From contig NZ_CP059068.1 of the NCBI RefSeq assembly GCF_017798165.1, forward strand, positions 124,001-188,000: 64,000 bases of DNA, written 5' to 3'. This DNA is from Rhodoferax sp. AJA081-3 (GTDB lineage: Bacteria > Pseudomonadota > Gammaproteobacteria > Burkholderiales > Burkholderiaceae_C). The notes beneath the pieces were generated by a model. That model saw only the letters and a list, made by a program, of their open reading frames with translations, was not told the origin of the DNA and did no database searches. Numbering within the stretch: the first letter of the stretch is position 1; each line of letters starts with the position of its first letter. The translations under genes and the position numbers were made by a program. This document shows, piece by piece, positions 54,866 to 59,212 of this stretch.

Positions 54866-56755
54866 ATGGCAATCGTAGAAATCAAAGTCCCCGATATCGG
54901 CGACGTCACCGACGTCAGCGTTATCGAACTGATGGTCAAACCCGGCGACACCATCAAGGCCGAGCAAAGCCTGATCACCGTGGAGAGCGACAAGGCCTCC
55001 ATGGAGATCCCGGCCAGCCAAGGCGGCGTGGTCAAGGAACTCAAAGTCAAGCTGGGCGACAAGGTCAGCGAAGGTTCGGTTGTGTTGATGCTGGAAGTGG
55101 CCGGTGCAGATGCCGAGCCCAGCCCGGCTCCAGCCAATGCTTCAACGTCAAATCAGGCTGTAGCCCCCGTCGCTGCTACACCAGATGCTCCTAAAACAGT
55201 AGTAAATGCACCGGCACCGGCACCGGCAGAGGTCGCTGTGGCTGCACCCGCTGGCGCCAGCTACGCCGGTACCGCAGACTTGGACTGCGACGTGCTGGTT
55301 ATCGGTGGCGGCCCTGGCGGTTACTCGGCTGCGTTCCGCGCGGCCGACCTAGGCCTGAAGGTCATCCTGGTCGAACGCTACGCCACACTGGGTGGCGTCT
55401 GTCTGAACGTGGGTTGTATCCCATCCAAGGCGCTGCTGCACGTGGCGGCCGTCATGGACGAGGTGAGCCACATGTCTGCCCTGGGCGTGGACTTTGGCGC
55501 ACCGGTGGTCAACGTCGACAAGCTGCGTGGCCACAAGGAAAAAGTCATTGGCAAGCTGACCGGCGGTCTCGCCGCCATGGCCAAGATGCGCAAGGTCACC
55601 ACCGTGCGCGGCTACGGTGCCTTCGTTGGCGCCAACCATGTGGAAGTGGAAGAAACCAGCGGTGGCGCGCAAGAGAAGACCGGCACCAAGAAGGTCATCG
55701 CCTTCAAGAAGGCCATCATTGCTGCGGGCAGCCAAGCGGTGCGCCTGCCTTTCATGCCCGAAGACCCACGCGTGGTGGACAGCACTGGCGCGCTGGAGCT
55801 GAAAGAAGTCCCCAAGCGCATGCTGATCCTGGGTGGCGGCATCATCGGCCTGGAAATGGGCACCGTCTACAGCACGCTGGGCGCACGCCTGGACGTGGTG
55901 GAAATGCTGGACGGCCTGATGCAGGGCGCCGACCGCGACCTCGTCAAGATCTGGCAGAAGATGAACGCCAAGCGTTTTGACAACATCATGCTCAAGACCA
56001 AGACCGTCTCCGCACGCGCCTTGCCCGAAGGCATTGAGGTCACGTTCGCCGCAGCAGAGGAGGGCGGCACGGCCCCCGCGCCCCAGGTGTATGACCTGGT
56101 GCTGCAAGCCGTGGGCCGCACGCCCAATGGCAAGAAGATCGCCGCCGAGAAAGCCGGGGTGGCGGTCACCGACCGTGGTTTCATCAATGTCGATATCCAG
56201 ATGCGCACCAACGTGCCCCACATCTTCGCCATCGGCGACATCGTCGGCCAGCCGATGCTGGCCCACAAGGCGGTGCACGAGGCCCATGTGGCGGCCGAAG
56301 TGATTGCCGGTGAATTGCAGGGCAACAAGGAGCTGGCCGCAGCCGCCTTCAACGCCCGCGTCATTCCCAGCGTGGCCTACACCGACCCCGAAGTGGCCTG
56401 GGTTGGCCTCACTGAAGACCAGGCCAAGGCCCAAGGCATCAAGGTCAAGAAGGGCCTGTTCCCGTGGACGGCATCGGGCCGCGCCATTGCCAATGGCCGC
56501 GACGAAGGTGTCACCAAGCTTTTGTTCGACGATTCACCCGAGGCGCATGGTCACGGCAAGATCCTGGGCGGCGGCATGGTCGGCACGCATGCGGGCGACA
56601 TGATCGGCGAGATCGCGCTGGCGATTGAGATGGGCGCGGACGCGGTGGATATCGGCAAGACCATCCACCCCCACCCCACGCTGGGCGAAAGCATCGGCAT
56701 GGCGGCGGAGATTGCGCATGGCAGTTGCACGGATGTGCCGCCAGCGAGAAAGTAA
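54866..56755 (+). CDS. lpdA: Dihydrolipoamide dehydrogenase (E3) with N-terminal lipoyl domain
   Basis: 629 residues, longer than usual E3 (about 475) because an N-terminal lipoyl domain (lysine K43 in [12 protein letters not shown]) is fused through an Ala/Pro linker. The enzyme part begins near residue 135 ([20 protein letters not shown]), with the redox pair in [16 protein letters not shown] motif [20 protein letters not shown] and the catalytic HPHPTLGES. It reoxidises lipoyl groups of E2. A mini-repeat lies in frame in the linker. The last 463 bases are duplicated at 58750-59212. Confidence 0.96.
55148..55206 (+). repeat. Mini-repeat copy G, inside the lpdA linker
   Basis: TCAAATCAGGCTGTAGCCCC, CGTCGCTGCTACACCAGATG, CTCCTAAAACAGTAGTAAA run consecutively. 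It is translated as part of the linker ([20 protein letters not shown]), parallel to copy F in aceF. Confidence 0.8.
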
Positions 56756-56964
56756 AGTTGGTCTAACCACCAGGTGCTACTGAATCAGTAGCTGGCCGCG
56801 AAGTTCCGAAGAGGGCTGCGCGGTTTTCTTTATTGCACTGGTGGCGAAAATGCGGCAGCATTTTTGTCGATCATTCGAGCAATGACCCCATCAGCCCGGA
56901 GCGGCGCGGGCTGGCGTGACAATATGCGGTGCCGCTAGTCCTCAACCGCCAATCACCACTCTAC
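56756..56964. other. Gap between lpdA and the yadGH-like genes
   Basis: About 210 bases with no gene. GCTACTGAATCAGTAGC near 56776 is a 7-base-arm palindrome without a T-tract. A short AT-rich stretch (TTTTCTTTATTGCAC) near 56825 could hold a promoter for the transporter. The expected lpdA terminator is absent here and is instead found after the duplicated segment. Confidence 0.5.
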
Positions 56965-57933
56965 ATGCTTGCCAATCCCCCCATCGTTTCCGCCGCGGAC
57001 CCCATAGTCTGCGTGCGGGACCTCAGCAAAACCTATGCGGACGGTTTCCAGGCCCTCAAGACCATCAACCTGGACATCCGGCGCGGCGAGATTTTTGCGC
57101 TGTTGGGCCCCAACGGTGCAGGCAAGACCACGCTGATCAGTGTGATCTGCGGTATGAGCACCGCCACCCTGGGCACGGTCACGGCCGACGGCCACGACAC
57201 GGTGCGTGACTACCGTGCGGCGCGTTCCATCATTGGTCTGGTTCCCCAGGAGTTGCACACGGATTCGTTTGAGACGGTGTGGGCCACGGTGAGCTTCAGC
57301 CGCGGCCTGTTTGGCAAGGCGCCGAATCCGGCGTTCATCGAGAAAATCCTGAAAGACCTGTCGCTGTGGGACAAGAAGGACAACAAGATCTTGCAGCTTT
57401 CCGGTGGCATGAAACGGCGTGTGCTGATTGCCAAGGCCCTGTCACATGAGCCGAAGATACTGTTCCTCGACGAACCCAGTGCGGGTGTTGACGTGGAGTT
57501 GCGCCATGACATGTGGCGCCTGGTGCGCCAACTGCGCGATGCTGGCACGACCATCATCCTGACCACCCACTACATCGAAGAAGCCGAAGACATGGCCGAC
57601 CGCATCGGCGTGATCCGCAACGGCGAGCTGATCGTGGTGGAAGACAAGCACGTGCTGATGCGAAAGCTGGGCAAAAAGCAACTGACGCTTACGCTGCAGC
57701 ACCCCTTGGAACGGGTACCGGAGGCCTTGGCATCCTGGTCTCTCGAACTGTCGCAGCATGGCCAGCAGCTGACCTACAGCTTTGACACCCAGCAGGAAGA
57801 CACCGGCATTGCCGCACTGTTGCGTGCCCTGGGCGAGGCAGGTATTGATTTCAAGGATCTGCATTCCAGCGAAAGCTCGCTCGAAGACATTTTCGTCAGC
57901 CTGGTCCACGATACGAAAGCAACGCAAGCATGA
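56965..57933 (+). CDS. ABC-2 type transporter ATPase (YadG-like)
   Basis: 322 residues from the ATG at 56965; a GTG at 56929 is in frame. Walker A is [19 protein letters not shown], the signature is [20 protein letters not shown] and Walker B is [13 protein letters not shown], followed by the H-loop [16 protein letters not shown]. The length and the C-terminal ~90-residue extension fit YadG-type exporters. It overlaps the permease gene by 4 bases. The pair lies between lpdA and a copy of the lpdA end, so it is probably an insertion. Confidence 0.92.
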
Positions 57934-58700
57934 ACGGCCTCAACCTGCACGGCGTGCGCGCCATCTACCGCTTCGAGATGAACCGCGCCTTTCGCACCTG
58001 GATGCAAAGCCTGATTGCGCCCGTGCTCTCCACAGCTTTGTATTTCATCGTCTTCGGCTCGGCCATTGGTTCGCGCATGGGCGACATCGGGGGGGTAAGT
58101 TATGGCGCCTACATCATCCCGGGGCTACTGATGCTCTCGCTGCTGTCGGAGAGTATTTCAAACTCTGCCTTTGGTATCTATATGCCCAAATGGTCTGGCA
58201 CCATTTACGAGCTGCTGAGCGCACCGGTCGGATGGGTGGAGGTGCTGCTGGGCTATGTGGGCGCTGCGGTGAGCAAGTCACTCATGGTGGGCACCCTCAT
58301 CCTCATCACAGCGCGATTTTTCGTGCCGTATGAGGTGGCGCATCCGCTGTGGATGATGGGCTTTTTGGTACTCACCGCCACAACTTTCTGCCTGTTCGGA
58401 TTCATCATTGGTCTGTGGGCCGACAGTTTTCAAAAACTGCAGGTCATCCCGCTGCTGGTGATCACCCCGCTTACCTTCCTGGGTGGGGCGTTCTACAGCA
58501 TCAGCATGCTGCCGCCGCTGTGGCAAGCCGTGTCGCTGTTCAACCCCGTGGTGTATCTCATCAGTGGGCTGCGCTGGGCGTTTTACGGCCAAGCCGATGT
58601 GCACATTGGCATCAGCGTGGGCATGACGCTGGGGTTCATGGTGGCATGTCTTGTGGTGGTGTGGTGGGTGTTCAAGACAGGCCGCCGCATCCGCAAGTGA
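57930..58700 (+). CDS. ABC-2 type transporter permease (YadH-like)
   Basis: 256 residues with six membrane helices, among them [39 protein letters not shown] and [20 protein letters not shown]. The motif [20 protein letters not shown] is typical of YadH-like permeases. Two copies with two ATPases should form the exporter. The substrate is unknown. The ATGA overlap with the ATPase gene shows translational coupling. Confidence 0.92.
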
Positions 58701-58726
58701 GCCCTTGACTCGACAAAAACCTGGAC

Positions 58727-59212
58727 GTGTCCTTGGAAGCGACCAACCTGGCCGAAGTGGCAGCCGGTGAATTGCAAGGCAACAAGGAGCTGGCCGCTGC
58801 CGCCTTCAACGCCCGTGTGATCCCCAGCGTGGCCGACACCGACCCCGAAGTGGCCTGGGTCGGCCTCACCGAAGACCAGGCCAAGGCCCAAGGCATCAAG
58901 GTCAAGAAGGGCCTGTTCCCCTGGACCGCATCCGGCCGCGCGATTGCCAACGGCCGCGACGAAGGCGTTACCAAACTGTTGTTCGACGATTCACCCGAGG
59001 CCCACGGCCACGGCAAGATCCTGGGCGGCGGCATGGTCGGCACCCATGCGGGCGACATGATTGGTGAGATCGCGCTGGCGATTGAGATGGGTGCGGACGC
59101 GGGGGATATCGGCAAGACGATTCACCCACATCCCACGCTGGGTGAATCCATTGGCATGGCGGCGGAAATTGCGCATGGCAGTTGCACGGATGTGCCACCG
59201 GCGCGCAGGTGA
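58727..59212 (+). pseudogene. Truncated second copy of the lpdA 3' end
   Basis: Bases 58750-59212 align without gaps to lpdA 56293-56755. I count about 43 mismatches in 463 bases (roughly 91% identity). Nearly all are at third codon positions, with only four amino-acid changes (Ile to Ala, Tyr to Asp, Val to Gly, Lys to Arg). The segment codes for the E3 dimerisation domain including HPHPTLGES but lacks the FAD and NAD parts, so it cannot be an enzyme. An open frame from GTG at 58727 adds eight unrelated residues; expression is doubtful. A strong terminator follows. Confidence 0.92.

Follow-up and report, generated by a model that had tools for sequence, protein, structure and literature searches.

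Recurrent, layered arrival of unrelated genes behind lpdA at the end of the pdh operon in Rhodoferax and its family, and a candidate integrase-free route of capture

The arrival of genes beside core genes without mobile-element machinery is usually inferred from recombination rates. Displacement of the C-terminal ends of Rhs and contact-dependent inhibition (CDI) genes, accompanied by orphan 3' ends, was reportedly described by Jackson in 2009 and Poole in 2011; the ends encode new toxin tips, which are themselves the cargo. In Vibrio cholerae, effector-immunity modules of the type VI secretion system (T6SS) undergo sequential displacement, and the authors, in the part of their account that deals with these arrays, suggest that a mechanism similar to homology-facilitated illegitimate recombination is at work (Kirchberger et al. 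2017, PMC5361080). The latter process is described for laboratory events in the portion of the report that we draw on (PMC3240628). Many hotspots also lack mobile elements and show recombination in the flanking core genes, according to the sections of a 2017 paper that concern them (PMC5635113). Here we analyse a 64,000-nt window of Rhodoferax sp. AJA081-3 (contig NZ_CP059068.1, positions 124,001 to 188,000 of the forward strand; the window is this whole stretch), in which lpdA, at the end of the pdh operon, is followed by a yadGH-like ATP-binding cassette (ABC) transporter and then by a truncated second lpdA end. The yadGH insertion is one of many at the same gene end, which an earlier note on this DNA had overlooked. 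Of more interest than the single transporter insertion is the apparent recurrent, layered use of the pdh operon's end as a landing place.

All window features given here, from lpdA to the hairpin behind copy B, lie on the + strand. Intact lpdA (54866..56755, 629 aa, with Pyr_redox_2, Pyr_redox_dim and Biotin_lipoyl domains) is the conserved left anchor of the locus. The DNA repeat reported by the earlier note is reproduced by alignment: 463 nt of the intact 3' end (copy A, 56293..56755) recur on the other side of the transporter (copy B, 58750..59212). The two copies align without gaps and differ at 43 positions. Within the whole genome (G000; a single contig of 5.17 Mb), a DNA search found the lpdA 3' end only as copies A and B. 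Copy B is a truncated 3' end whose open reading frame (ORF; 58727-59212) covers the dimerisation domain only, and alignment, Pfam and the codon and allele comparisons below lead us to read it as the displaced native end. Between the copies stand a yadG-like transporter ATPase (56929..57933; ABC_tran PF00005, 3.1e-33) and a yadH-like ABC-2 permease (57930..58700; ABC2_membrane PF01061, 1.1e-31), both over the Pfam cut-off. Their ORFs are adjacent, overlap by 4 nt and carry the domain pair of a YadGH-type ABC-2 transporter. At the right joint (58701..58762), sequence and alignment show the cargo running into lpdA some 463 nt short of the end of the gene, with the 5' part of lpdA absent. The copies differ at positions 11, 12 and 13 of the repeat, that is, at 3 of the first 13, and the left homology boundary is therefore uncertain by roughly 15 nt.

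We collected 109 distinct lpdA loci (numbered L, their genomes G), each selected because its lpdA is intact; in 77 the sequence downstream of the gene extends for at least 4 kb, and the remaining 32 are shorter. Pieces of a locus's own lpdA (40 nt or longer, 78% identity or higher, same strand, downstream of the intact gene) occur in 22 of the 77, or 23 if L149 is included, and the shorter loci add 4 of 32. L149 was left out of the count because its matches overlap an odhL paralogue located there; a 30-nt opposite-strand match in L052 was taken as chance, and the weak cases L110 and L141 (about 80% over 108 and 69 nt) were retained. Over all 109 loci, 57 of 58 pieces share the strand of lpdA (52 of 53 when L149 and L145 are set aside), and 25 of these 57 extend to 16 nt or less from the gene end. 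Starts of the 36 pieces that measure 60 nt or more lie 82-1061 nt before it.

When the last 600 nt of each gene were compared with the next 6 kb in the same 77 loci, lpdA gave matches in 19 loci, with 27 of 27 pieces on the same strand. The 305 other genes of at least 250 aa gave eight matches, seven of them in ORFs over lpdA remnants and one a 30-nt opposite-strand match, and no 3'-end repeat of their own; chance is therefore excluded as the source of the lpdA repeats. Among the matches listed, whole-protein searches gave no same-contig partial near-identical duplicate of PrlC (95 of 100 same-genus genomes matched) or of OdhL (97 of 100 matched). Because PrlC shows similar overlaps in some fragmented genomes, contig-split overlaps of lpdA (for example in G003, G013, G019, G021 and G088) were left uncounted. 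In G003, the closest relative by aceE, two lpdA segments on separate contigs (L121 and L122) overlap by 517 nt at only 95% identity, so this genome probably also has a second lpdA copy. An LpdA search of 100 same-genus genomes found, among the matches listed, a full gene with a downstream partial on the same contig and strand in five (G000, G007, G044, G047 and G097), and a 150-genome family sample confirmed four further loci among the matches listed there (L173, L174, L175 and L177). The displaced piece in L173 (G610) comprises the later part of aceF and the whole of lpdA; a right joint can thus fall further upstream than lpdA. The two complete lpdA genes of this locus stand in tandem at 6007-7863 and 15480-17306, the aceF part precedes the second, and the upstream copy is the more diverged (76% versus 81% identity to the window protein).

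The DNA behind the remnants links loci with insertions to simpler arrangements in relatives. In five cases the flank behind a remnant matches the flank close behind intact lpdA in another genome: L095 with L054 (1378 nt, 95%), L086 with L085 (1430 nt, 91%), L048 with L089 (1197 nt, 94%), and both L132 (410 nt, 96%) and L142 (408 nt, 94%) with L010. The layering is clearest in L095, where the lower layer is that of L054 and a further stretch with an lpdA remnant lies on top. The outer remnant is shorter than the inner in L148 (240 and 41 nt), L095 (762 and 40 nt), L113 (1042 and 29 nt) and L114 (684 and 312 nt), and the L116 remnant has internal deletions. In L143 (G009) the remnant, at +5467 to +8637 behind lpdA, is split by about 2.65 kb, and its halves overlap by 5 nt, a pattern as after a later insertion with target duplication. 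The earlier note had proposed checking whether relatives lacking the insert carry lpdA followed directly by the terminator; such empty-flank relatives exist for other insertions of this kind, but for yadGH no relative among the loci compared has the same cargo beside lpdA and none has the flank of copy B.

Cargo differs between most loci, as judged by clustering and Pfam. Its left side is lpdA; on the right, what loci share is the lpdA remnant, with varying flanks beyond it. L048, L070 and L086 have about 770-860 nt of cargo in common at 91-93% identity; the right joint falls at the same place in L048 and L070, 381 nt from the gene end, but elsewhere in L086. A second shared segment, which contains the RelE and helix-turn-helix (HTH) genes of L033, links L033, L133 and L057 at 78-86%. 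Right joints differ among these three loci, and for the L054/L095 layer, despite the shared cargo.

Cargo was scanned with Pfam (40 proteins from 15 relatives' loci and the transporter pair) and PADLOC (10 proteins). The 40 proteins and the transporter pair include no site-specific recombinase; one 97-aa rve_3 fragment occurs in L095. Cargo of clear defence or toxin-antitoxin type is present in 5 of 16 loci, namely RelE with HTH (L033), a type IIG restriction enzyme (L046), Fic proteins (L048 and L051) and an AbiL-like pair (L115), and in two more it is suggestive of defence (HD-CE with an ATPase in L075, NACHT/TPR in L143). The defence genes of L046 and L048 sit past the first remnant and so belong to an older layer. 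The remaining scanned proteins are transport, sensor, metabolic or unknown proteins. The window's transporter is rare in the genus: at E <= 1e-90, a search for yadG picked up 1 of 100 same-genus genomes, a figure that depends on any close copy ranking within the 21 candidates scored per genome. Among 399 genomes of the order 59 have yadH, and in the listed family genomes it is confined to G000, G148 and G363. The closest yadH found, in G148 from another genus of the family, is 85% identical. A donor with the transporter beside lpdA was sought in L170 (G148), L171 (G363) and L172 (G428, same order), and in none of them does yadH stand beside lpdA.

The differences between copies A and B carry information on their history. 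The earlier note's count of about 43 nearly all synonymous differences holds: codon positions 1, 2 and 3 contribute 4, 5 and 34, and 35 of the changed codons are synonymous and 4 nonsynonymous. An on-the-spot duplicate left to drift would be expected to differ at all codon positions and mostly by bases unseen in working genes. Four bases of copy B, at positions 11, 12, 86 and 354, are each found in fewer than 2% of 107 relatives, and all lie at codon positions 1 or 2 of conserved codons. The resulting replacements of I by A and of Y by D hit sites that do not vary in any of the 107 relatives, and that of V by G a site where 93 relatives have V and 14 have I. The other 39 differing bases of copy B are each present in at least 4% of the relatives. 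The four rare bases look like decay after truncation, and copy B appears to have acquired most of its differences while a working gene, with decay merely begun. Codon-position and allele counts together indicate that A and B diverged mainly while both were working genes; the absence of a recent local duplication, which the earlier note had asserted, therefore stands.

Other loci show the same pattern. Among 21 pieces of at least 150 nt, 20 have a third-position share of 0.68-1.00, the exception being a piece of L115 at +9467 with 0.29; between species the mean is 0.84 and the 5% point 0.755 (212 pairs). Three of the four family loci give 0.84, 0.79 and 0.67. In 17 gapless pieces, one of which had three comparators only, the fragment side carries a base rare in relatives at 81 of 604 differences, against 466.5 expected for random substitution. 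We conclude that the functional histories of intact and truncated ends were largely separate and are overlaid by some decay.

We propose that foreign genes enter the genomes of this genus and family at the lpdA end of the pdh operon without the help of an integrase, and we give this reading a probability of roughly 0.6. Incoming DNA from a related bacterium would carry an lpdA end followed by cargo. On the left, homologous recombination would take place inside lpdA; on the right, the far end without homology would be joined illegitimately at an arbitrary point inside the resident lpdA. Selection would retain only products with one working lpdA. The product would be an intact lpdA followed by cargo, with the old native lpdA end and its own terminator downstream as a truncated, decaying fossil, and later insertions would land on earlier ones and so build layers. 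In the window, the yadGH-like transporter would be the cargo and copy B the fossil. The reading builds on the recurrence, the same orientation, the variable joints, the largely separate functional histories, the layering in relatives, the genus-rare cargo and the lack of a recombinase in the scanned cargo. In form, the mechanism is most likely homology-facilitated illegitimate recombination.

We infer that copy B is native and copy A incoming, and that the DNA was taken up by transformation. A ComEC-family gene is present in G000; it is weak support for uptake, because 10 of 14 control genomes have one too. Verminephrobacter eiseniae belongs to the Comamonadaceae. This species is naturally transformable, as the part of the report that concerns it states (PMC4212676).

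The flanks behind the two lpdA ends differ in type. Intact lpdA in the window is followed by a 17-nt palindrome, GCTACTGAATCAGTAGC, and a terminator-like hairpin (56776..56831; E type), and copy B by a different terminator-like hairpin, GCCCGGACTGGCAACAGTTCGGGC (59235..59273; N type). An Rfam scan of 56700-59400 gave no match up to E = 1. Across the collected loci, the N type lies directly behind intact lpdA in 32 of 109, and the E type, a palindrome like GCTACTGATTCAGTAGC with a GC-rich terminator-like hairpin, in 24 of 109, from many species. For the 77 longer loci, remnants occur in 10 of 20 with an E-type flank, 6 of 19 with an N-type flank and 6 of 38 others. A 24-mer of the E element (up to 3 mismatches) occurs once in G000. 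E-like elements are also present in L116 and L129, apparently away from lpdA ends. The E palindrome was considered as an insertion signal; given the single copy in G000 and the similar sequences apparently off lpdA ends, we read it as a terminator-like flank.

Several results weigh against the proposed entry point. We did not locate the crossover point within lpdA by approximately unbiased (AU) tests, flank-type counts or identity jumps. In the FastTree tree copies A and B are near kin, and in the AU test a tree with A and B as one clade is not rejected and is even the better tree (p-AU 0.73). In the first test set a one-clade tree of intact and truncated ends was not rejected in four of five cases, and the fifth had this clade from the start; so did the trees of all four family loci, with support of 82-100. 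For 9 of 15 remnants, none of the genes compared is nearer than the intact lpdA of the same locus. Nor are remnants clearly closer than the intact end to the empty-flank relative (lower in 6 of 8 comparisons); these identities, tried as a marker of direction, are roughly star-like and give none. Flank type, E or N, requires 16 changes on the 3'-end tree versus 13, 17 and 16 on other parts of lpdA. Behind the 24 remnant pieces that extend to the gene end stands the N type in 7 cases, the E type in 4 and neither type in 13. The third-position share is under the interspecies 5% point in 8 of the 21 pieces, which points to some decay on fragments mixed in, and the whole gene in L173 has a share of 0.55. 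Finally, right joints may have shifted through later deletions.

Along lpdA, identity jumps between cargo-sharing pairs are not among the largest jumps of all pairs. The earlier note's view that full-length lpdA is a hybrid with a donor end from a relative gains nothing from the AU test or from flank type, whose link to the 3' end is no closer than that to other parts of lpdA, and no close donor was found among relatives' pdh loci. Its expectation of a native terminator after the truncated copy is borne out in the window, where the N type follows copy B, but is weaker in general (7 of 24 remnant ends). Close kin recombine most easily, and the tree and flank results fit close-kin donors without proving transfer.

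Alternatively, as the earlier note had suggested among other options, a circle carrying an lpdA 3' fragment and cargo could integrate by a single Campbell crossover, with the end of the fragment setting the right joint. This would likewise yield a hybrid full gene, cargo and a truncated copy; the joint and cargo shared by L048 and L070 agree with it, and excision between direct repeats would, we expect, make such circles. The same cargo with different joints elsewhere (L086; L033, L133 and L057; L054 and L095) is not predicted by it unless later deletions moved the joints, and no plasmid or replication family occurs among the 40 scanned proteins and the transporter pair. We consider integration of this kind unlikely.

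Still less probable is an old duplication within the lineage, in which both lpdA genes were long functional and diverged before the second was cut back while genes accumulated between them. In its favour, an intact gene and its truncated copy are in many cases closest to one another, and G610 still has two complete tandem lpdA genes. However, among the matches listed, two full-length lpdA genes occur in none of the 100 same-genus genomes, and a close same-contig full-length pair in 1 of the 150 family genomes (G610). Had both copies long stayed functional, such pairs would be expected in more genomes. Relatives, moreover, show new layers over a shared lower layer, and truncation points differ.

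A site-specific or transposing element that targets the lpdA 3' end and brings a replacement gene end, as many genomic islands do, would suit the one preferred gene, the involvement of its 3' end, the gene staying intact and the short conserved palindrome and terminator after 24 of 109 intact copies, where remnants are somewhat commoner, but it is highly improbable given pieces whose starts are scattered between 82 and 1061 nt from the end of the gene and so define no fixed attachment (att) core, an E element that is single-copy in G000, and scanned cargo whose sole recombinase-like match is the rve_3 fragment of L095.

If integrase-free capture at lpdA is true, each scar records an old end, a joint position and a rough age, and one-sided recombination in nature becomes countable, datable and testable. 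It would also account for the variable, partly defence-like cargo behind a housekeeping operon across a bacterial family. One could envision a wider scenario, which we offer tentatively and lean somewhat against, in which the pdh operon ends in a natural port for integrase-free gene capture throughout the Comamonadaceae. Selection for intact LpdA would make each event leave a datable lpdA fossil; the fossils would serve as a second homology arm, and cargo flanked by two lpdA ends could pass as a cassette from one species to another with no mobile-element gene involved. Because some of the cargo is of anti-phage or toxin-antitoxin type, the port may be a site of defence-gene exchange.

The surroundings of the two lpdA ends are as follows. 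Upstream lie aceE (50353..53085, +), the first gene of the conserved pdh operon, identified from the ORF list and by best matches among relatives' pdh loci, and aceF (53107..54783, +), from the ORF list and lipoyl-domain matches beside lpdA in the window and in relatives. Directly behind copy B, a 997-aa ORF (59288-62281) contains four 300-nt units at 306-nt spacing, the later ones 76, 75 and 67% identical to the first; it has no Pfam match at E <= 0.001. In L051, L056, L072 and L124 a common stretch directly behind lpdA carries a CTGT-N8-ACAG-like motif before a start codon, which we take to resemble a LexA box.

The closest known systems are the T6SS and Rhs displacement arrays and the recombination hotspots at core genes. 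Among the titles listed in literature searches of a library that lacks most subscription papers, none describes insertions of this kind at lpdA. Across loci we observe the features of a displacement array: an intact anchor with unrelated cargo, same-strand layered pieces and variable right joints. Like the T6SS arrays, as the available part of that account presents them, the lpdA loci have a conserved upstream anchor, a new module right behind it, older pieces pushed downstream in layers and intermediates in relatives (PMC5361080). Unlike there, where according to the same part the anchor belongs to a toxin locus and the kept pieces are immunity genes (PMC5361080), a housekeeping gene here anchors cargo to which it has no relation, and the leftovers are the anchor's own dead ends. 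As at Rhs and CDI loci, an intact gene is followed by displaced 3' fragments; unlike those loci, the 3' end at lpdA remains LpdA and other genes are the cargo. The core-gene hotspots, in the sections cited, share a core gene beside highly variable cargo and the lack of an integrase, but their model of double recombination in core genes on both sides (PMC5635113) differs from lpdA, where the right joint lies within the left-anchor gene and each event therefore leaves a truncated copy. Homology-facilitated illegitimate recombination, in the part of the report cited, likewise combines homology at one end with an illegitimate joint at the other; unlike those laboratory cases (PMC3240628), the process at lpdA is deduced from fixed natural events, with the crossover unseen. 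The lpdA arrangement is a variation on an already known type of event.

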